Positions 7,718-48,642 of a DNA stretch of 64,000 nt are shown here, piece by piece. The stretch is from Hellea sp. GTDB taxonomy: Bacteria > Pseudomonadota > Alphaproteobacteria > Caulobacterales > Maricaulaceae. Location: positions 166,167-230,166 of the forward strand of contig JABDKG010000087.1 of NCBI GenBank assembly GCA_013002305.1, given 5' to 3'. The notes below the pieces were generated by a model. That model saw only the letters and a program-made list of their open reading frames with translations, searched no databases and was not told the DNA's origin. The translations under genes were made by a program, and so were the position numbers. Within the stretch, counting starts at the first letter, position 1; every line of letters starts with the position of its first letter.

Positions 7718-10700
7718 ATGAAACGTACTCTATTAATGGCCGTAAGTGCCGTGGTGTTAACAGCACCAACCATCGCTCAGGAATTACCACCTGGTAATCC
7801 ATTACCTGGCGAATGCTTTGCCCGCGTTTTAGTGCCGGCAACCTATGAAACATCAACCGAGCAGGTTGTGCAGCGCGCTGCTTCTGAAGAACTCAGAAAA
7901 ATTCCAGCTCGCTATGAAACCGTAACCGAGCGGGTTCTCGTTCAGGAAGAAAGCTATCAGCTCGTTCCTGTTGGAACTTCCGGCTACCGTTATCCGTCGA
8001 ACGTTACCTTTGGTGGCGCGACATACTCTATAGATGCGAACGGAATGGTCCGGACTCAATCTGCAGGGTCCGCAGGTGCCGCAGGCACTGTGATTGGTCG
8101 TGTTGACGCTAATGGCAATGTGGTTGGATCAGATGGTTCAATGCTCGCAAGAAGCGCCGTTCGCGTAACGGCCACAAGCACAGGCAGCCAAACCGGCGCC
8201 TTGTCTCCAACATTCCGGACCGTTACCGAAACTGTCGTCGTTCAAGAAGCGTCAACAGAATTATTTACAGTTCCCGCAGTTTACGGAACGGAAACTGAAA
8301 CAGTTGTCGTAAAGCCTGAGACCGTTGAATATGTTACGGTACCAGCCACTTACGAAACTTATAACGAAACTGTTGTGGTGCAAGAAGCATCGACTGAACT
8401 CGTTACTGTACCCCCTGTATTCGAGACAGTCACAGAAACAGTTGTCGTACAAGATGCTACAACTCAACTCGTAACAATCCCTGCTGAGTATGGAACGGTC
8501 TCCGAGACGGTAGTCGTTCAGCCACAAAGTGTAGACTATGTGACTGTGCCGCCGACATATGAGACTGTAACTGAAACTGTTGTCGTTCAGGACGCTTCGA
8601 CCCAATTGGTCTCTGTTCCTGCAACTTTTGACACCGTAACAGAAACAATGGTGGTCAAAGACGCCTCAACTGAGCTGGTAACTATTCCGGCAACTTTTGA
8701 AACAGTCACTGAGACTGTTGTAGTCCAAGACGCCACGACACAGCTTGTAACCGTCCCGCCTGTATTTGAAACTGTATCTGAAACAGTCGTCGTTCAGCCG
8801 CAAACGGTTACCTATGAAAGCATCCCGGCGACTTACGGAACGGTTACTGAAACAATCGTCGTTCAGGAAGCTTCAACCGAGCTTGTCACTGTCCCAGCTG
8901 TATATGAAACTGTTTCCGAAACAGTTGTCGTTCAGCCACAAACAACTGAACTCGTAACAGTGCCCGCCGTATTTGGTTCGGTTACTGAAACGATCGTTGT
9001 TCAAGACGCTTCAACTGAGCTGGTCACTGTGCCGCCTGTGTTTGGTACCGTTTCTGAAACTGTTGTTGTTCAGCCTCAAACAGTTGAATATGCTGTATTA
9101 CCTGCTGAGTATGAAACCTATAACGAGACTATCGTTGTGCAAGAAGCCTCTACTGAGCTGGCGACTATCCCAGCCGAGTTTGGCACCGTTTCTGAAACAG
9201 TGGTCGTTCAGCCAGCATCTGTCGAATATGTGACAATGCCAGCTGTATTTGAAACTGTGCAAGAAGCTGTTATTGTTCAGGAAGCATCTTCTGAGCTTGT
9301 TACTGTACCACCTGTCTACGAGACAGTCTCTGAAACCGTTGTCGTCCAGCCTCAAACTGTTGAATATGTAACAGTACCGCCGGTTTATGACACTGTTACG
9401 GAAACCGTCGTTGTTCAGGAAGCATCTACAGAACTTGTTACAGTACCGGCCGTTTACGGAACTGTGACTGAAACAGTCGTCGTTCAGCCAGCATCTGTCA
9501 CTTATGAGACAATACCTGCTGTATACGAAACCGTTCAGCGCCCTGTCGTTGTTCAGGAAGCCTCAACAGAGCTCGTAACAATACCGCCAGTCTTTGAGAC
9601 CGTAACTGAGACCGTCGTTGTGACGCCACAAACCGTTACGTACAAAGTCATTCCGGCCGTATATGAAACTGTTCAAGAGGCTGTCGTTGTTCAAGCCGCT
9701 TCAACAGAACTTGTTACAGTGCCGCCTGTTTATGAGACCGTTACTGAAACCGTCATGGTACAAGCACAGTCAGTTGATTATGCGACTATTCCAGCGACAT
9801 ATGAGACCTACAATGAAACAATCGTTGTTCAGGAAGCCTCAAATGAGCTGATCACTGTCCCAGCGACTTTCGAAACTGTTACGGAAACAGTTGTCGTACA
9901 GCCACAATCCGTGACTTACACAACTCTACCGCCAGTATTTGATACTGTGACTGAAACCGTTGTTGTTCAGGAAGCATCTACTGAGTTGGTCATTGTACCG
10001 CCAGTATTTGAAACTGTTTCTGAAACTGTCGTCGTACAGCCGCAGACCGTTGACTATGTCGCTGTTCCAGCGACTTACGAAACCGTTCAGGAAACAGTCA
10101 TTGTCCAGGAAGCGTCCACACAATTGGTCACTGTACCGCCTGTGTTTGAAACAGTGTCGGAAACTGTTGTCGTTCAGCCAGCATCCGTCACCTATACTAC
10201 GGTTCCAGCGGTATTCGAAACCGTCACTGAAACCGTTGTCGTTCAAGAAGCGTCTACAGAGTTGGTAACTGTGCCAGCCAAGTATAAGACTGTTACTGAA
10301 ACCGTTGTTGTTCAAGAAGCATCAACAGAGCTGGTCACGATCCCGGCTGTGTTTGAAACTGTTGAAGAATCGGTTGTGGTTCAGGAAGCATCGACCGAAT
10401 TGGTCACTATGCCACCTGTGTTCGAAACCGTTACAGAAACGGTTGTTGTTCAAGCGCAATCTGTCGACTATGTTACTGTTCCAGCGACATATGAAACTTA
10501 CAATGAAACTGTAGTCGTACAGGAAGCATCAACTGAACTCGTAACTGTGCCAGCCGAATACGGTACGGTGACAGAGACCGTTGTTGTACAAGATGCCTCA
10601 ACGGAGCTGGTAACTATCCCAGCGGAATATGGAACAGTTTCTGAAACAGTCGTTGTTCGCGAAGCCTCAACTGAGCTTGTCAGCGTACCGGCAACGTTCA

Positions 10701-13700
10701 AGACTGTAACTGAAACTGTTGTCGTTCAGCCACAATCTGTCACCTATGAATCAGTGCCAGCAACATATGAAACATATGAAGAAGCTGTTATTGTACAGGA
10801 AGCCAGTTCAGAACTGATCGCCGTTCCAGCGACTTACAAAACCGTCAATGAGACGATTGTTGTCCAGGAAGCGACTACTGAGCTTGTCACTATTCCCGCG
10901 GAATATGAAACTGTCACTGAGACAGTCATTGTTCAGCCCCAAACCGTCGAATACGTCACCACTCCGGCGAAGTTCCAATCGGTACAGCAAACATATGTTG
11001 CTGAAGACGGCGCCGAGCAATTGGTTGTTGTTCCAGCCACTTTTGAAACAGTGACTGAAACGATTGTTGTTCAAGAAGCCTCCATGCGTCTCGAAGTTGT
11101 TCCAGCGACTTATAGAACGGTTACTGAAACCGTCGTTGTTCGTCCTGAGACAACGGATATTGATATTATCCCGGCGACTTACGAAACTCGCTCCGAGCAG
11201 GTCTTGATTACCCCGGCTCGTCAAGAGTGGAAGTCCTCGGCCCAAGCAGTCAATGCAGGTCAATTCCACTCAGGTACGGTCAATTCCAATACTCGTGGTC
11301 AATTCACTGTCTTTGATGGCGTTAATGAGCGCATCGTAGAGTCTACACAAACAACGGTTTCTCAAACTGGCGAAATTCTGTGTCTTGTTCAGATACCGGC
11401 TGTGTACGAAACTATTACCAAGCAGGTTGTAAAGACACCGGCTCGTACAGTTGAAAAACGCATCCCGGCGGTGACGAAAACCATCACACGCCGCGTTGTC
11501 GACACGCCAGCCAGCACACGTGAGATCGCGGTACCGGCAATCACTGATACAATTACACGCCGCGTTGTTAAAACGCCGGCTCGCGTTGTTACTCAGGCAG
11601 CTTCGGGTAGTAAGACAGGCACGTTTACGCGATCAGAAATCGCGCAAGAAGCGCGTATAGCAGAACGTGTCATTCCAGCTGTTACCAAGCAAGTCTCTCG
11701 CCGCGTCGTCAAAACACCGGCCCGGACTGTGGAAAAAGTCGTCCCGGCTGTTACTCAGACAGTAACCCGCCGTGTGGTTGATACGCCTGCGACGACGCGC
11801 CAACGTACCATCCCGGCTGTGACGAAGATGGAAACACGTCGACGTATCAAAACGCCAGCGCGTACAGTTGAGAAGGTCATTCCGGCCGTCACAAAGACTG
11901 TTACCCGCCGTGTGGTTGATAAGCCGGCCGCGACGCAAGAACGCGTTATTCCAGCTGTCACTAAGACCGAAACCCGTCGCGTCGTAAAGACGCCAGCTCG
12001 GACAATGGAAAAAACCATTCCAGCTGTTACTCAGCAAATCACGCGTCGTGTTGTTAAGACACCGGCCCGAACTGTTGAGAAAGTCATTCCGGCTGTCACG
12101 AAAACGGAAACTCGCCGTCGCATCAAGACACCAGCTCGCACTGCCGAGAAGGTGATCCCAGCTGTGACCAAGCAGGTAACCCGTCGTGTCGTTAAGGAAC
12201 CTGCTCGTACCGTCGAAAAGGTCATCCCGGCTGTCACTCGGATGCGTCAGCGTCGTGTTGTTAAAACACCGGCGGCGACTCAAGAGCGCGTTATTCCAGC
12301 AGTAACCAAGCAGGTTACACGCCGCGTTGTTGACGTACCAGCACGGACAATGGAAAAAGTTATCCCAGCGATCACCAAGCAGGAAACACGCCGCGTCGTG
12401 AAAACGCCTGCTCGGACCGTTGAGAAGACTGTCCCGGCTGTAACTAAAACGGTTTCCCGTCGCGTCGTTAAGACACCAGCGGCGACAATGGAAAAAGTTG
12501 TTCCAGCAATCACCAAAGTGGAAACACGCCGTGTGATCAAGGATGCAGCTCGAACCGTTGAGAAGGTTGTTCCTGCGGTAACGAAGACTGTGTCCCGACG
12601 TGTCGTTAAGACTCCGGCTCGGACAATGGAAAAAGTTATCCCAGCTGTAACCAAGCAGGAAACTCGCCGCGTCGTGAAAACGCCAGGCCGGACCGTTGAG
12701 AAGGTTATTCCAGCGGTTACCAAGCAAGTAACTCGCCGTGTGGTGAAAGATCCAGCTCGGACCGTTCAGAAAGCCATCCCGGCGATTACGAAGACTGAAA
12801 CACGTCGTCGCATCAAGACACCAGCTCGCACCGTCGAGAAGGTAATCCCGGCTGTAACTAAGCAGGTAACACGTCGCATCGTGAAAACACCGGCTCGGAC
12901 TGTTGAGAAAGTCATTCCAGCGATTACAAAGATGGAACAGCGCCGCGTGATCAAGACGCCAGCTCGGACTGTCGAACAGGTTATCCCAGCTGTTACCAAG
13001 CAGGTTTCACGTCGCATTGTGAAAACTCCGGCTTCAACCATGGAAAAAGTTATTCCAGCGGTTACGAAGATGGAAACATCACGTGTCGTGAAGACACCGG
13101 CTCGGACTGTTGAGAAAACTGTTCCAGCGGTTACCAAGCAAGTCTCCCGCCGTGTTGTTAAAACGCCTGCTCGCTCTGTCGAGAAGGTTGTTCCAGCGAT
13201 CACTAAGCAGGAAACTCGCCGTATTGTGAAAACTCCGGCGTCAACAATCGAGAAAGTTATCCCAGCTGTGACGAAGACATTGTCTCGCCGCGTTGTGAAA
13301 ACACCAGCTCGTACCGTTGAAAAGGTCATTCCAGCGATTACCAAGATGGAAACCCGCCGTGTTGTGAAGACACCAGCTCGCACCGTCGAGAAGGCTGTCC
13401 CAGCCGTAACTAAGACCGTTACGCGCCGCGTTGTTAAGACACCGGCTCGCACGATGGAAAAAACTATCCCGGCTGTTACGAAAACTGAAACCCGTCGTCG
13501 CATCAAGACGCCAGCTCGCACTGTCGAGAAGGTGGTTCCAGCGGTAACAAAGACAGTTACTCGTCGCGTTGTTAAAGAACCGGCACGATCAGTTGAGAAA
13601 GTCATTCCGGCTATCACAAAAACTGAAACACGCCGTGTTGTGAAAACACCAGCTCGGACCGTTGAGAAGGTCGTACCGGCCATCACTAAAACTGAAACTC

Positions 13701-15220
13701 GCCGAATTGTGAAAACACCGGCGCGGGCAGTAGAAAAAGTGATCCCGGCTATCACCAAGACTGAAACACGCCGCGTCGTGAAGGAACCAGCCCGCACAGT
13801 AGAGCGTGTTGTTCCAGCCGTGACGAAGCAGGTTTCCCGTCGTGTAGTTAAAACGCCAGCTTCAACTGTTGAGAAAGTTATCCCAGCAGTGACTAAGCAG
13901 GTTACACGCCGCGTGGTGAAGGATCCGGCCCGTACAGTTGAGAAAGTAATTCCAGCTGTCACGAAAACCGTGTCTCGCCAGGTTGTTAAGACGCCAGCTC
14001 GTACGATGGAAAAAGTTATTCCAGCCGTTACGCAGCAGGTTCAACGCCGCGTCGTTAAGGAACCAGCCCGGACAGTCGAGAAAGTAATCCCGGCCGTTAC
14101 GAAAACTGTGACCCGTCGCGTTGAGAAGACCCCTGCTCGCTCTGTCGAGAAAGTCATCCCAGCTGTGACCAAGCAAGTTACTCGCCGCGTCGTCAAGACA
14201 CCGGCCAGGACTGTTGAAAAGGTTATTCCAGCAGTGACGAAGACGGAAACTCGTCGTCGGATCAAAACGCCGGCCAGTACCCAACAGCGAGTCATCCCAG
14301 CGGTTACCAAACAGGTTACCCGCCGGGTAGTGAAAACGCCAATGCGGACTGAAGAACGTGTTATTCCAGCTGTGACCAAAACCATCACACGTCGTGTTGT
14401 TGACGGGACACCAGCAATGGAACGCCGCGTCATCCCAGCTGTCTATGATACGATTGAAGTCACCCGACTGGTTGAACCAGCGCGGACTGAGTCAGTCGTA
14501 ACGCCAGCCGCGTACAAAACGGTCGTTAAGGAAACACTGTTAACTCCTGAGAAAATCGAGTGGCGTCAGGTTCTTTGCGAAGCCAACGCGACATCGACCG
14601 TCATAATGGCTATCCAGCGAGCGCTGAAAACGGAAGGATATTACACTCACACGATTGATGGTGTCCTTGGTCAGCAGACATACGCAGCGGTTGAGGCCTA
14701 TCAAAAAGCCAATGGCCTATCCACAGGCGGTGTGACATTGACAACGGTTGAACGTCTCGGCGTCGATTGGAGATCGATGGTCTCACGCCGGTCAGGTGCA
14801 GTCTCTGGAACAGTTGGTTCAGGCGGATTTTCGACAGGAACGTCAACTGGAACCTTCTCAGGCGGACAATCCGTAACGATAGGTTCGGCGACTTACTCCA
14901 TCAATAGCTCAGGCCAAGTCCTGGATGCCGGTGGTGCTGTTATTGGCCGTGTTGACGGAAACGGAAACATTGTGAATGCTTCCGGGCAGATCATCGGACG
15001 TATGTCATCTATGACGACAACGACGACTACCGGTTCAGGAATGGCTTCTGGCGCAACAGGCGGCGGATCATCCATGAGCTTGGGTTCAGCTGGCGGTTAC
15101 ACGCTACGGGCCGATGGCATGGTCGTTAGCTCCTCAGGTGCTGTAATTGGTCGTGTTGACGAAAACGGCAACATCATCAATACTGCCGGTCAGATCATTG
15201 GACGCTGGGTTAGAAACTAA
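7718..15220 (+). CDS. Giant secreted repeat protein: signal peptide, 46-unit acidic 23-aa repeat array, 45-unit basic 23-aa repeat array, peptidoglycan-binding-like domain, C-terminal Gly/Asn-rich motif repeats
   Basis: 2500 aa. Signal peptide MKRTLLMAVSAVVLTAPTIAQ. Acidic consensus PAVYETVTETVVVQEASTELVTV; basic consensus PAVTKTVTRRVVKTPARTVEKVI. PGB_1-like IMAIQRALKTEGYYTHTIDGVLGQQTYAAVEAYQKANGL. Confidence 0.93.
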   Translation: MKRTLLMAVSAVVLTAPTIAQELPPGNPLPGECFARVLVPATYETSTEQVVQRAASEELRKIPARYETVTERVLVQEESYQLVPVGTSGYRYPSNVTFGGATYSIDANGMVRTQSAGSAGAAGTVIGRVDANGNVVGSDGSMLARSAVRVTATSTGSQTGALSPTFRTVTETVVVQEASTELFTVPAVYGTETETVVVKPETVEYVTVPATYETYNETVVVQEASTELVTVPPVFETVTETVVVQDATTQLVTIPAEYGTVSETVVVQPQSVDYVTVPPTYETVTETVVVQDASTQLVSVPATFDTVTETMVVKDASTELVTIPATFETVTETVVVQDATTQLVTVPPVFETVSETVVVQPQTVTYESIPATYGTVTETIVVQEASTELVTVPAVYETVSETVVVQPQTTELVTVPAVFGSVTETIVVQDASTELVTVPPVFGTVSETVVVQPQTVEYAVLPAEYETYNETIVVQEASTELATIPAEFGTVSETVVVQPASVEYVTMPAVFETVQEAVIVQEASSELVTVPPVYETVSETVVVQPQTVEYVTVPPVYDTVTETVVVQEASTELVTVPAVYGTVTETVVVQPASVTYETIPAVYETVQRPVVVQEASTELVTIPPVFETVTETVVVTPQTVTYKVIPAVYETVQEAVVVQAASTELVTVPPVYETVTETVMVQAQSVDYATIPATYETYNETIVVQEASNELITVPATFETVTETVVVQPQSVTYTTLPPVFDTVTETVVVQEASTELVIVPPVFETVSETVVVQPQTVDYVAVPATYETVQETVIVQEASTQLVTVPPVFETVSETVVVQPASVTYTTVPAVFETVTETVVVQEASTELVTVPAKYKTVTETVVVQEASTELVTIPAVFETVEESVVVQEASTELVTMPPVFETVTETVVVQAQSVDYVTVPATYETYNETVVVQEASTELVTVPAEYGTVTETVVVQDASTELVTIPAEYGTVSETVVVREASTELVSVPATFKTVTETVVVQPQSVTYESVPATYETYEEAVIVQEASSELIAVPATYKTVNETIVVQEATTELVTIPAEYETVTETVIVQPQTVEYVTTPAKFQSVQQTYVAEDGAEQLVVVPATFETVTETIVVQEASMRLEVVPATYRTVTETVVVRPETTDIDIIPATYETRSEQVLITPARQEWKSSAQAVNAGQFHSGTVNSNTRGQFTVFDGVNERIVESTQTTVSQTGEILCLVQIPAVYETITKQVVKTPARTVEKRIPAVTKTITRRVVDTPASTREIAVPAITDTITRRVVKTPARVVTQAASGSKTGTFTRSEIAQEARIAERVIPAVTKQVSRRVVKTPARTVEKVVPAVTQTVTRRVVDTPATTRQRTIPAVTKMETRRRIKTPARTVEKVIPAVTKTVTRRVVDKPAATQERVIPAVTKTETRRVVKTPARTMEKTIPAVTQQITRRVVKTPARTVEKVIPAVTKTETRRRIKTPARTAEKVIPAVTKQVTRRVVKEPARTVEKVIPAVTRMRQRRVVKTPAATQERVIPAVTKQVTRRVVDVPARTMEKVIPAITKQETRRVVKTPARTVEKTVPAVTKTVSRRVVKTPAATMEKVVPAITKVETRRVIKDAARTVEKVVPAVTKTVSRRVVKTPARTMEKVIPAVTKQETRRVVKTPGRTVEKVIPAVTKQVTRRVVKDPARTVQKAIPAITKTETRRRIKTPARTVEKVIPAVTKQVTRRIVKTPARTVEKVIPAITKMEQRRVIKTPARTVEQVIPAVTKQVSRRIVKTPASTMEKVIPAVTKMETSRVVKTPARTVEKTVPAVTKQVSRRVVKTPARSVEKVVPAITKQETRRIVKTPASTIEKVIPAVTKTLSRRVVKTPARTVEKVIPAITKMETRRVVKTPARTVEKAVPAVTKTVTRRVVKTPARTMEKTIPAVTKTETRRRIKTPARTVEKVVPAVTKTVTRRVVKEPARSVEKVIPAITKTETRRVVKTPARTVEKVVPAITKTETRRIVKTPARAVEKVIPAITKTETRRVVKEPARTVERVVPAVTKQVSRRVVKTPASTVEKVIPAVTKQVTRRVVKDPARTVEKVIPAVTKTVSRQVVKTPARTMEKVIPAVTQQVQRRVVKEPARTVEKVIPAVTKTVTRRVEKTPARSVEKVIPAVTKQVTRRVVKTPARTVEKVIPAVTKTETRRRIKTPASTQQRVIPAVTKQVTRRVVKTPMRTEERVIPAVTKTITRRVVDGTPAMERRVIPAVYDTIEVTRLVEPARTESVVTPAAYKTVVKETLLTPEKIEWRQVLCEANATSTVIMAIQRALKTEGYYTHTIDGVLGQQTYAAVEAYQKANGLSTGGVTLTTVERLGVDWRSMVSRRSGAVSGTVGSGGFSTGTSTGTFSGGQSVTIGSATYSINSSGQVLDAGGAVIGRVDGNGNIVNASGQIIGRMSSMTTTTTTGSGMASGATGGGSSMSLGSAGGYTLRADGMVVSSSGAVIGRVDENGNIINTAGQIIGRWVRN
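8204..11239 (+). repeat. Coding tandem repeat, acidic array: 44 contiguous 69-bp (23-aa) units
   Basis: Hand parsing gives 44 x 69 = 3036 bp, ending exactly on ...RQEWKSS at 11239. Two more units precede a non-repeat insertion near the N terminus. Confidence 0.95.
11396..14572 (+). repeat. Coding tandem repeat, basic array: 45 units of 69 bp (23 aa) with one 24-aa insertion after unit 3
   Basis: 45 x 69 + 72 = 3177 bp, ending exactly at ...EWRQV (14572); unit starts checked at 11813, 12089, 12779, 13469 and 14228. Confidence 0.95.
14582..14775 (+). other. Peptidoglycan-binding-like (PGB_1) domain within the giant repeat protein
   Basis: ANATSTVIMAIQRALKTEGYYTHTIDGVLGQQTYAAVEAYQKANGLSTGGVTLTTVERLGVDW has the typical IQ.AL...G.Y...IDG..G..T..A...YQ pattern. 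Confidence 0.75.
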
Positions 15221-43635: not shown

Positions 43636-44198
43636 GGATTGTTTCGGGCCGCCTGAGAGGACGTAATATTTCTTCACCCGGCGGGCGAAATACGCGGCCT
43701 ACCAGCGACCAAACCCGGGAGTCCATATTTAACATTCTCGGCCATGCTGATTGGGCAATGCCTGTTGAAGGCGGCCGCGTCGCCGACATTTTTGCTGGCT
43801 CTGGCGCGCTAGGTCTGGAGGCTATTTCAAGAGGGGCGGAATTCTGCCTGTTCGTCGAGACAGAACCCAAAGCGCGCGCGTCTATCCGGCAAAATATAGA
43901 GAAGATGGATCTGTTTGGCTGTACAAGGCTTCACCGCCAAGACGCAACCAAGTTAAGAGTCGCACCCGGAAATTTAAGGGGTCAATTCACCCATGTCTTT
44001 ATGGACCCGCCTTACAATAAGGGCCTTTGGCGGCCCGTTTTATTTCGGCTTTTACAGCAAGGCTTGATCTCGACAGATAGCGTGATTATTCTTGAAGTCG
44101 GCGCTAAAGAAGAACTTGAAATTAAAGGGTTCGAATGCCTCGACGAGCGGGTATGGGGCGCTGCCAAAGTCGTATTTTTAAGGCCCCGCGCGGCCTAA
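43632..44198 (+). CDS. rsmD: 16S rRNA (guanine966-N2)-methyltransferase
   Basis: MRIVSGRLRGRNISSPGGRNTRPTSDQTRESIFNIL; FMDPPYNKGLW. Confidence 0.94.
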   Translation: MRIVSGRLRGRNISSPGGRNTRPTSDQTRESIFNILGHADWAMPVEGGRVADIFAGSGALGLEAISRGAEFCLFVETEPKARASIRQNIEKMDLFGCTRLHRQDATKLRVAPGNLRGQFTHVFMDPPYNKGLWRPVLFRLLQQGLISTDSVIILEVGAKEELEIKGFECLDERVWGAAKVVFLRPRAA

Positions 44199-46354
44199 GC
44201 GGCGATCAGAAGTTCGCCGGTTTCCTCAACGAAATTCGGCTGCGGAAATTCGATAGTTATGCAGGTTCCGACATTGACTTGACTTTTTATATCAACCCGA
44301 GCGCTAATTTGATCGCAATATTTCATGACGACAGCGAGGCCCAGTCCGGCGCCTTCATGCGCACGATTAAGATTCATGTCGCCTTGTTCAAATGGCCTAA
44401 ATAATTCCGATATTTTTGCCCCGTCCATCCCCTCACCTGTGTCCTTCACCCTGAGAGCAAATCCGGGACCGTCTTTCAGCTCGGAAAGACTGAGTTTGAT
44501 CTCACCTGATTTTGTAAATTTCAAGGCATTATCAAATAGATTCCTAACGATGGCACGGTAAATGACTTTATTGGAAAGGTGTTGAGGCTTGAATTCAGGA
44601 TCCTTGTCTATGCTGACTTTTAAAAACTCCCCGCGCTGCTTTAGTTCGATGTTCCGATTGTTTATCTCAGAAGAAAATTCGCGTAAAATGGTTGCGGCAT
44701 TGTCGACCGCATCGATGATCTCAATATAAGTTTTGGAATGCTCACTGTCAGAGGAAATTGCTAGCATATTTTCAACGATAATGTGAAGTCGTTTACCGGC
44801 ATTTTTGATAGCTTTCAGAAGAGCTCTGTCTTGACGATCGGTTGATTTTTGCTCGAGAATACTGGCCAAATTAATGATCGGATTAAGCGGTGTTCTAAGT
44901 TCATGACCGACGACACCAATGAATTTTTCTTTAGCATCAACGCCGGCAAGTGCTTTTTTGTGAGCTACTTTCAGCTCGCCAAACATGGTATTGAGTTGTT
45001 CGTTGGCTTGATTGAGGTCGCGGTTAGTAATCTTGATCTGTTTATTTAATCCGCGTTCGCGCAAATAACCTCTAAACGCATAAAGTAGCAGTAAAAGAAT
45101 GAAAATGATGGCAGCCAGAGACACCCACAGCAGTAATTCCTGTGCACGTGCTGTTTGCGCGGTTAAAGAGGCTTCATATTCTAGCTTGTCCATTTCGCGC
45201 TTGTTACGCTCGCTCGTAATCTGAAGATTGTTGGAAATCCGCGCCCTATCGGCTGACAGTTCGCGTTCAAACAAGGTTTGGGTTAGGGAATCGATTTTGT
45301 TATCAATTTCCAGTGCCTTGTTAGGCAACCCGTTGAGGATCGCCAGTTCTTTTTCACCCATCAACACGTATTTGCCAAACTCATTATCTAAGCTATCAGC
45401 ATAATCTCGGCGCATTTCCTTGATAAAAAGCAATGCTTTGTTCTTTTCACCTAACTTCGCATATAAGTAAGATGACAATGCCATGCGTGCCATCTTTACA
45501 TCTTTGCGCACATTAATTTGCTCGAGCGCCCCAAAATACTCCTTCGCATGCTTAAAATCACCATTTTCTAGATAATTTCGACCTAAGGCATAGTACATAA
45601 TTTCACGATCATTTTCACTTAGATCTTCAACGAAAGGCTCGACGGTTTCTGTCACTTGGAGTGCTAAAATTGGACCGACTTCTTTGCGAGCTAACGTCGA
45701 GAGATTGTTGATGCTATGATAATAACCTTCCGATATCCCAGCTTTTTGCATGGCTTCTAAATAATATTCACCTGCAGTGACAGTTTCAGAGATATTTCGA
45801 TCAACAACAAATGCCATGAACAAAAGTTCGTAACTTTGAAACCTCGCATACCAATAGTTGCTAGCTTCAGCAGGGATTAGAGCAGACTGCGATACCGCCT
45901 TTTCCGCCCATTCCAGCATACGCGTGTTTTCATGATGTTCATGCCACAAAAATGACAATGATATTGAACATTTATACGCCAGAGCTGGTGCAAAATTTAC
46001 GGCGCAGGATTCCAATGCTTTGTAGCTATCCGAATTTAAATCGATTTTTTCTTCGTATAGAACCGCTGTTGTAAGTTCATAAATGTCCTTCAGGTCACTG
46101 GATATAAGTGGCGACACCAAACTGTGATTCATTCTGTCGAAGTCATAATTTGAAAGTGCTTCGTCGATTTCAAGTTCAATTTCATTGTGAACTAATGCCG
46201 TCTTCTGCGAGTTGGATGCCTCGACAAATTTTTGCGCAAGTGAAACTAAGGGATGGGGTTCGCTGTTAGCGCTTACAGTGTCGTCTGCGTACACGCCGTT
46301 AAAAGCGGAAAGGACCGCGACTATTAATAAGGATATTTTTAGCGCCTTCAACAC
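44195..46354 (-). CDS. Orphan sensor histidine kinase with predicted periplasmic helical/TPR-like region
   Basis: Signal-like N terminus MLKALKISLLIVAVLSAFNGVYA, about 360 aa helical region, TM ELLLWVSLAAIIFILLLLLYAF, H-box FIGVVGHELRTPLNPI, ATPase GEGMDGAKISELFRPFEQGD...GAGLGLAVV. GTG start at 46354; no receiver domain. Confidence 0.88.
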   Translation of the reverse strand: MLKALKISLLIVAVLSAFNGVYADDTVSANSEPHPLVSLAQKFVEASNSQKTALVHNEIELEIDEALSNYDFDRMNHSLVSPLISSDLKDIYELTTAVLYEEKIDLNSDSYKALESCAVNFAPALAYKCSISLSFLWHEHHENTRMLEWAEKAVSQSALIPAEASNYWYARFQSYELLFMAFVVDRNISETVTAGEYYLEAMQKAGISEGYYHSINNLSTLARKEVGPILALQVTETVEPFVEDLSENDREIMYYALGRNYLENGDFKHAKEYFGALEQINVRKDVKMARMALSSYLYAKLGEKNKALLFIKEMRRDYADSLDNEFGKYVLMGEKELAILNGLPNKALEIDNKIDSLTQTLFERELSADRARISNNLQITSERNKREMDKLEYEASLTAQTARAQELLLWVSLAAIIFILLLLLYAFRGYLRERGLNKQIKITNRDLNQANEQLNTMFGELKVAHKKALAGVDAKEKFIGVVGHELRTPLNPIINLASILEQKSTDRQDRALLKAIKNAGKRLHIIVENMLAISSDSEHSKTYIEIIDAVDNAATILREFSSEINNRNIELKQRGEFLKVSIDKDPEFKPQHLSNKVIYRAIVRNLFDNALKFTKSGEIKLSLSELKDGPGFALRVKDTGEGMDGAKISELFRPFEQGDMNLNRAHEGAGLGLAVVMKYCDQISARVDIKSQVNVGTCITIEFPQPNFVEETGELLIAA

Positions 46355-46397: not shown

Positions 46398-46422
46398 TGC
46401 AACTCGCGAATCGCGAGTTGCA
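46398..46422 (-). other. Perfect 12-bp-arm hairpin between the peptide gene and the kinase gene
   Basis: TGCAACTCGCGA-A-TCGCGAGTTGCA; no downstream T tract. Confidence 0.8.
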
Positions 46423-46430
46423 TGATGTTA

Positions 46431-46583
46431 CTAGTCTTTCAGGACAACGCCTCTTTCGGCAAGTACTACACCTCTTTCGGCAAGCACTACGCCTCTTTCA
46501 GCAAGCACTACGCCTCTTTCGGCCAGCACTACGCCGCGTCCCCCGACGACTACTTTAGTTTCATCCATTGTGAGTTCACGCAT
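46431..46583 (-). CDS. Small double-glycine-leader precursor peptide with five tandem RGVVL(AE/KD) heptapeptides
   Basis: Own translation: MRELTMDETKVVVGGRGVVLAERGVVLAERGVVLAERGVVLAERGVVLKD*. GGAG Shine-Dalgarno 7 nt before ATG. L(-12), E(-8), V(-4), GG(-2,-1). All nucleotide differences among the first four repeats are synonymous. Missed by the ORF track length cutoff. Confidence 0.82.
   Translation of the reverse strand: MRELTMDETKVVVGGRGVVLAERGVVLAERGVVLAERGVVLAERGVVLKD
46434..46538 (-). repeat. 21-bp coding tandem repeat, 5 copies
   Basis: Units (CGC/AGA)GG(C/T)GTAGT(G/A)CT(G/T)GC(C/T)GAA x4, then AGAGGCGTTGTCCTGAAAGAC. Confidence 0.9.
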
Positions 46584-46818
46584 TGAACAACTCCAATTGG
46601 CTTATGAGCAATATTGCTCTAGTTCAAAATTGACCTATTAAGCCTATAATTGTCAATTGATTAACCATAAAATTCTCGCAATAAAACAGATAAGACAATG
46701 TTATTAAGTAATTTTTTCTCGGTTTGGTTGATTAAAAATGAAATTTTACCATTTATACTGGTAATTGCAATTGGCATTTTATTCGACTGTCAGGCGAGAG
46801 ATCCAAACGTTTAATCAT

Positions 46819-48642
46819 CTATCTCCGCCCAAAAAGCCGTTCAATATCAGCCAATTTCAACTCTACATATGTCGGGCGGCCATGATTACACTGACCGCTA
46901 TGGGGCGTTGACTCCATCTGCCTGAGGAGCGCATTCATTTCGGACGAGTTGAGGCGTCGACCCGCCCGAACCGAACCGTGACACGCCATGGTCCCGCATA
47001 CATCTTCAAATTTTTCTTTAAGGCTCAATGCCTCATCATATGCCGACAGATCATCAGCCAAATCTCTAAGAAGTCCGTGGACGTCCATTTCGCCTAAAAG
47101 TGACGGAGTTTCGCGAACCGCAACGGCGCCCGCGCCAAAAGGCTCAATGATCAGCCCCATTTGCGCAAGCTCATCCGCCCTGGACAAAACGCGTTGCGCA
47201 TCATTTTCGCCTAAATCCACTATGTCGGGAATTAGCAGACTCTGGCGCACAACGCCCTGCCCGCTCATGGCTTGTTTCATCTGTTCATACACGAGGCGCT
47301 CATGGGCGGCGTGCTGATCGACTATGATGATTCCATCTTCGGTTTGCGCCACGATGTAGGTTTCATGAAGCTGCGCCCGGGCAGCGCCGAGCGGATTACT
47401 GGAGATACCCTCGGGACTGGCATGATCAAAAACAGCGTTATCTTCCTCGACCTTGGCCGAAAATCCATCGACCAATTGCTGCATTTGCTGACCGGAGTTT
47501 TGCGGGATATGTGAATAGCCTTGCCTTGGTCGGTAATCGCCTTGCAGCGGAAGCGATGTTCCGCTTTGAATTTTGCCTAATGCAAATTCCGATACCGTTG
47601 TACTGGCCCTGTGTCCGGCTCCGGCCAGCGCGTGACGCAACGCCGAGACAATCAGGCCGCGCACCAGATTGGGATCGCGAAACCGGACTTCAGTTTTGGC
47701 AGGGTGCACATTCACATCAACATGGGTCATCGGCAAGTCTACAAACAAGGCTGCTACCGGATAACGATTACGCGCCAGAAAATCCTGATAGGCGCCCCGT
47801 ATCGCTCCGTGCAGCAGCTTATCTTTAACGGGACGACCATTAACGAACAGGAATTGGTGCAGGCTGTTGCCGCGTGAATAGGTCGGCAAGCCCGCAAATC
47901 CGCTCAATCGAACCGCTTCGCGTTCGGTGTCGACGGACAAGGCATTGTCGCCAAAATCACGTCCTAAAACAGACGCCAGACGGCTCAGATGACCCGGCTG
48001 GTCATCCGATTGCGGCGCCACCCGGAAATTTGTTCGAGCAGAAGTGCCCAGCGTAAATCCTATGGTCGGATTTGCCATGGCCAGACGTTTGACAATATCG
48101 GATATGGCTAGGCTTTCGCTGCGTTCAGACTTTAAAAACTTGAGGCGCGCTGGTGTGGCGTAAAACAGGTCGCGGACTTCAACCCTGGTCCCCGACAGGC
48201 CAAATCTCGGGGCTGGTTTTATCGGCGAAATATCGCCGCCTTCAATATTGATTTGCCAGGCCGAGTCTGAACCAAGGGTTTGGGATGTGATCGACAATCG
48301 CGCCACAGATCCGATTGACGGCAAAGCCTCGCCGCGAAAGCCCATAGTCGCGATATTCAGTAGATCCCAATCACCCGCCTCATTGGGCTTCAGCTTGGAG
48401 GTCGCGTGACGCTCGATGGCGATCGGTAGCTCTTCAGCCGACATGCCTTTGCCATCGTCCATGACCGAGATCAGCGTTCGGCCGCCATCTTCGATGATAA
48501 TATCAATTTGGGACGCACCGGCATCTATCGCATTTTCTGCCAGCTCTTTGACGACACTTGCGGGCCGCTCAACGACTTCACCGGCTGCAATCCGGTTGAT
48601 CGTTTCTGTCGGTAATCGCTGTATGGATAGAATCGCGCTCAT
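46819..48642 (-). CDS. mutL: DNA mismatch repair protein MutL
   Basis: [48 protein letters not shown]-terminal [12 protein letters not shown]. Confidence 0.97.

Follow-up and report, generated by a model that had tools for sequence, protein, structure and literature searches.

Peptide quorum sensing is textbook Gram-positive biology. In yeast, the alpha-factor precursor places several pheromone copies, separated by spacers, in tandem behind a leader. The streptococcal pheromones ComC and BlpC are made as precursors with a double-glycine (GG) leader and exported by the peptidase-containing ABC transporters (PCATs) ComAB and BlpAB, and a histidine kinase gene adjoins the peptide gene; the sensor of ComC/ComDE is a polytopic membrane protein. 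GG leader and PCAT are also found in class II bacteriocins and microcins. The RRNPP systems of Firmicutes (Rap-Phr, NprR-NprX, PlcR-PapR) combine a short linear peptide with an adjacent TPR receptor, which is cytosolic and carries an HTH or phosphatase-type N-terminal domain. Their precursors are mostly Sec-exported, those of Rap-Phr can contain the autoinducer in several copies (PMC5199041), and a key Asn anchors the peptide in the receptors (PMC3601992). For Pseudomonadota, a 2023 survey describes signals as typically enzyme-made small molecules (PMC10075063). For the HetC PCAT of Nostoc PCC 7120, a role in bringing a signalling peptide into the periplasm was proposed in a 2024 paper, which also states an absence of evidence for Gram-negative PCAT roles beyond toxin export (PMC10986499).

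The window analysed here is a stretch of 64,000 nucleotides from the alphaproteobacterium Hellea sp. (contig JABDKG010000087.1). On its minus strand, a precursor peptide gene of 50 aa (46431..46583) encodes MRELTMDETKVVVGG, four copies of RGVVLAE, one RGVVLKD and a stop, i.e. a GG leader of 15 residues (46539..46583) and a core of 35 aa (46434..46538). This arrangement of leader and five heptads had been read from the letters in a first-pass annotation and was confirmed by translation; the 21-bp array was recovered independently by TRF (4.2 copies, 91% matches). The annotated Shine-Dalgarno motif GGAG is present 7 nt 5' of the ATG (46591..46594, minus strand). Codon comparison also bore out the claim that copies 1-4 differ synonymously only, and copy 5 has two extra replacements (A to K and E to D), both outside RGVVL. 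For PCAT leaders, the consensus L(-12)xxxE(-8)L(-7)xxxxG(-2)G(-1) was published (PMC6959990), and leader features behind C39 cleavage after GG were also taken from PMC7018657. With L-12, E-8, V-4, G-2 and G-1, the window leader agrees with these features, as the first-pass annotation had proposed with a hydrophobic residue at -4; position -7 is Thr in the window and Ile, Val or Leu in nearly all relatives. Judged by its sequence, the window ORF belongs to the PCAT substrates with GG leader.

The gene order in the window, all on the minus strand, is mutL (46819-48642), the peptide ORF and a sensor histidine kinase gene (44195..46354). The peptide ORF lies downstream of mutL and its stop is located 76 bp upstream of the kinase gene. 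This adjoining gene had been overlooked before; across the family, a sensor kinase of this kind is the peptide's conserved partner. Between peptide stop and kinase start, an 11-bp perfect hairpin was found (46398..46422, minus strand; z = -3.05 for the fold of the surrounding 101 nt), which has no T run and was not named a terminator. Among 31 loci of the family, 28 have an SD-like motif before the peptide, and in 24 a GC-rich stem with a T run is found in the gap between the two genes, against an expectation of 0.05 by mononucleotide shuffling. This suggests that the peptide may form a separate, stronger transcript. Elsewhere in the window (7718-15220, plus strand), an ORF of 2500 aa probably has a signal peptide and comprises a very large number of repeats, about 23 and 46 residues long, of the type TVTETVVVQ.AS.ELVTVPPVYE, with DNA periods of 69 and 138 bp.

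Relatives were searched with the 50-aa sequence, which gave weak yet positional matches with a shared leader, a different core and the same kinase type downstream. The leader is shared, as MRELTxEEIEVVTGG, by more than 30 relatives; the core behind it is hypervariable and usually a single copy of 5-9 residues of the type xPIVIDF. In the window's own genus, the site between mutL and rsmD encodes MRELTMDEVEVVTGG-GTVVVL in G002, where the kinase is only apparently truncated due to an assembly gap, and MRELTMDEVEVVTGG-MPPITE in G004. The peptide-kinase pair was also found in G007 (core SLKVEV) and, on a short contig, in G008 (core NHVPVEI). Within the window's family, about 70 neighbourhoods of C39 (PF03412) transporters were sampled. 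The recurrent gene order is PCAT, a distance of 135-280 bp, a short GG peptide and then a large sensor kinase; typical cores beside PCATs are LPIVIEN, FPIVITD, SPIVIDF, QPVIVEF, APIIVDF, MPIIIDF, RPIIVEW and KVVVDY. Orthologues with a conserved leader, which had been named as a check of the exported peptide, were found and the idea survived; conservation does not extend to the core, which differs in orthologues, and other species have different tandem cores.

An order-wide scan with the leader pattern found the short-core form confined to the window's family, and the reversed-pattern control gave zero matches. A class-wide scan was negative in 385 genomes (0/385), which is weak evidence, since its stricter pattern requires the -7 codon to have T at its second base and does not recognise the leader of the window either; both scans are blind to systems with other leaders. 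No family match above cut-off was obtained for the peptides in Pfam or NCBIfam, and no description of the family was found in the literature searched, mostly without subscription papers. Apparently, the window ORF is one member of an alphaproteobacterial peptide family hitherto undescribed, and the results suggest that this family occurs in a Gram-negative group not known to use such peptide signals. For the window genome no 16S match was obtained, and the 16S of one family member is about 90% identical to records from Alphaproteobacteria. Two peptides deviate. In one triad (PCAT, peptide, kinase), the peptide (L074:6530-6670, minus strand) has a core which is not short but longer and contains Cys (TKSAEKTEKQATESAIPEIDCLNRRRRACGA); at L095:3193-3258 (plus strand), a leader of the triad type ends with Gly-Ala instead of Gly-Gly (MRELTLEEIEVVTGA-GPVIDW).

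Besides the window, tandem cores are present in seven loci: RSIKT x4 (spacers SS/GN/SG), SGPVIIET x3, LPADIEW x4 (spacer ATA), FPIIIG x3, TPIDIEL x3, FPIDIEV x2 and IPVIDF x4 (spacers GKA/EKA/DKA). In all seven, the first unit begins at the GG site and the last one ends at the stop. The strict unit for the window is RGVVL; AE/KD may belong to the unit as well, because both end in an acidic residue. Variable codon columns within the units of the eight precursors were synonymous in 35 of 35 cases with no replacement, whereas the intervening residues had 3 synonymous columns and 8 replacements (Fisher's exact test, 6e-7), a contrast which is favoured by the choice of unit boundaries, picked by eye as the shared stretch. 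Given a neutral expectation of about 27% synonymous columns, the result for the units corresponds to 1.7e-20 if columns were independent, a condition that does not strictly apply; for the window alone, 5/5 variable columns are synonymous (p about 0.005). As read from these codon columns, selection acts on the repeat unit. Spacers in L045, L051, L056, L059 and L084 frequently have small residues both at their end and at -3 (ATA, TSA, ASA, AGS, VSA), which recalls signal-peptidase-like sites.

Two plus-strand frames are also open across the window repeat, so that the openness of the ORF by itself proves little. A chance ORF over a tandem DNA repeat is scarcely credible nevertheless, given the leader conserved at the same site in relatives, the synonymous-only variation of the unit and the Shine-Dalgarno motif; the orthologues have in effect refuted it already. 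Shared leaders of the orthologues, together with the zero matches of the reversed pattern, mean that the ORF is more than chance. RiPPs are known with multicore precursors and with GG leaders, and the precursor might thus have several cores which are modified before export by enzymes encoded elsewhere. This is a very improbable explanation: the cores are mostly devoid of Cys, Ser/Thr-rich stretches or other usual target residues, and no modifying enzyme is encoded at the window locus, where the neighbours are mutL and the kinase (the remaining neighbours and those of the triads were judged by eye).

The window genome (G000) encodes exactly one C39 transporter (C92:194499; L067 3486-5543), unlinked to the peptide. 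A genome-wide search for a C39/PCAT exporter had been set as a refutation test of the exported peptide, which the idea hereby withstood. In a loose genome-wide scan for GG leaders, whose pattern fixes one leader style, the window ORF was the only convincing precursor. Taken with the leaders of the orthologues and the tandem cores of other species, this single C39 transporter leaves the proposed exported repetitive peptide with a C39/PCAT leader well supported. Two arrangements occur in the family: all three genes linked as a triad or, in the split form which the window shows, the peptide-kinase pair away from the PCAT. Among 42 PCAT neighbourhoods complete on both sides, 23 contain peptide and kinase, 19 contain neither and none contains one alone (Fisher's exact test, 2e-12, a p-value inflated by the shared ancestry of the loci); the complete separation is still striking despite this ancestry. 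An HlyD-type fusion protein was found near the PCAT in 0/23 triads, but in 16/19 of the other neighbourhoods (6e-9, for loci which share ancestry). Some split-type relatives have a full fusion protein. In the window genome, a 167-aa fusion-protein homologue (L067:2986-3489, plus strand) is in frame, overlaps the start of the only PCAT and does not contain the middle part of its 406-412-aa relatives.

Longer GG-leader peptides of 56-85 aa were seen near PCATs of the family in L089, L063, L070, L105, L039 and L060; several are accompanied by a fusion protein, and these peptides are candidates for bacteriocin-like products. Whether the window core is itself a bacteriocin or microcin, which kills or inhibits neighbours while the kinase regulates or senses it, was considered in view of these larger peptides and of the GG leader and PCAT common to class II bacteriocins. 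Such a function is quite improbable for cores of mostly 5-9 residues in triads without a fusion protein, with no immunity gene seen and no match to a bacteriocin family above cut-off in Pfam and NCBIfam. Of the three options given in the first-pass annotation, a signal is favoured, and bacteriocin-like agent and RiPP are without support at the locus.

The proposed receptor is a sensor histidine kinase of 719 aa. It has a signal peptide, an extracytoplasmic TPR-like domain of about 380 aa (residues 24-406; 45137..46285), a single transmembrane helix predicted from hydropathy (about residues 407-426; 45077..45136) and a kinase core (44237..44935) with HisKA (474-535) and HATPase_c (600-706), both over the Pfam cut-off; all coordinates refer to the minus strand. 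A receiver domain is added in many relatives, and no response regulator gene adjoins the window kinase. AlphaFold2 predicted an all-helical superhelix for the sensor (pLDDT 89.5), and a second model, seeded on L078, had the same fold (88.0). The best Foldseek matches of both models include the Rap-Phr and NprR-NprX complexes (E 1e-3 to 1e-2) as well as LGN, kinesin light chain and APC6, and none passes E 1e-3. With a sequence profile of the sensor, TPR proteins were matched, among them kinesin light chain (4e-7) and, at a weak level, RapF (0.014). According to the models, the fold of the sensor domain is TPR; its RRNPP-likeness is suggestive only, because Foldseek lists unrelated TPR proteins alongside Rap and NprR. 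One Asn is invariant in the alignment of 32 sensors, and it may correspond to the anchoring Asn of RRNPP receptors. A review of kinase sensors mentions TPR-like sensor regions for VbrK/VxrA only (PMC8534201).

Between G000 and its nearest relatives, identity is 31-33% for the sensor, 63% for the kinase region, 70% for the PCAT and 83-84% for MutL. A contig search with the whole window kinase returned only a generic Paenibacillus kinase, probably because the sensor diverges too fast; in the plasmid collection, the sensor had no match. No excess of core-sensor covariation beyond relatedness was found (partial Mantel test not significant). In G074, a kinase with the same sensor type (L109:5203-7287, minus strand) has no recognisable GG peptide or PCAT alongside and is either an orphan receptor or has a partner peptide with another leader.

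Release of the peptide outside the cell is doubtful, because the triad PCATs have no neighbouring fusion protein, and without it the peptide may get no further than the periplasm. From there, diffusion through porins is conceivable for a peptide of 6-8 residues. It is possible, though rather unlikely, that the peptide enters the periplasm only and serves its own cell's kinase as a report on export capacity, protease activity or the state of the envelope, without cell-cell communication. Variation of the cores between species and rapid divergence of the sensors are more in keeping with signalling specificity than with such self-monitoring, which would agree with an extracytoplasmic sensor, with the absence of a fusion protein beside the PCAT in 23/23 triads and with the incomplete homologue before the PCAT of the window genome; fusion proteins may, however, be encoded elsewhere, and some split-type relatives have a full one.

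With a probability of roughly two thirds, we consider that the ORF encodes, in a polyprotein-like precursor, a linear peptide pheromone which has a receptor of its own. At the sequence level, a leader conserved while cores diverge and the joint occurrence of peptide, kinase and PCAT in relatives suggest such a pheromone; against it stand the unlinked PCAT of the window genome, Thr at -7 of the leader and the missing excess of core-sensor covariation. As a pheromone precursor, the peptide would be cut after GG by the unlinked PCAT, which would also move the 35-residue core over the inner membrane. The core would work whole or after trimming to RGVVL-xx heptapeptides. The adjoining membrane kinase would sense it by the extracytoplasmic TPR domain, which may accommodate a short peptide in extended form, in the manner of RRNPP receptors, and the output of the kinase to a response regulator would change upon peptide binding.

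By analogy, we propose that the system works like a cross of two known types, the ComC-type GG pheromones, which go with a PCAT and a kinase, and the TPR recognition of RRNPP. In comparison with ComC/BlpC, it occurs in Alphaproteobacteria, its core has 5-9 residues or consists of tandem copies, no linked response regulator was found and the PCAT is unlinked in the window genome. The window system is outside the ComC/ComDE type, as its sensor is not polytopic but has one transmembrane helix and a TPR extracytoplasmic domain. With RRNPP, the system would share a short linear peptide, an adjacent (predicted) TPR receptor, a conserved Asn and, in some precursors, several autoinducer copies, but it is outside this group too, since the TPR domain is extracytoplasmic within a kinase instead of cytosolic and export would proceed by GG leader and PCAT instead of Sec. 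HetC likewise is a Gram-negative PCAT without neighbouring fusion protein; it differs by an extra cNMP-binding domain, and no linked kinase is described for it. From class II bacteriocins and microcins, the triads differ in that they have no fusion protein and a kinase as partner, that their cores are very short and that no immunity gene was seen. The likeness to yeast alpha-factor is limited to a leader followed by tandem copies, as there is no homology and export, processing and receptor are different.

The wider reading is that ribosomal linear-peptide quorum sensing exists in Gram-negative bacteria, with GG-leader precursors, some of them tandem like yeast alpha-factor, a PCAT without fusion protein and an extracytoplasmic, RRNPP-like TPR sensor of a (hybrid) histidine kinase; we hold its chances to be a little better than even. 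Within one locus, the family offers a defined peptide together with a transporter and a receptor candidate, which makes Gram-negative peptide signalling and a PCAT role other than toxin export directly testable. It would give polyprotein pheromone precursors a counterpart in bacteria, and its members form a natural series in which the divergence of receptor and ligand specificity can be studied.
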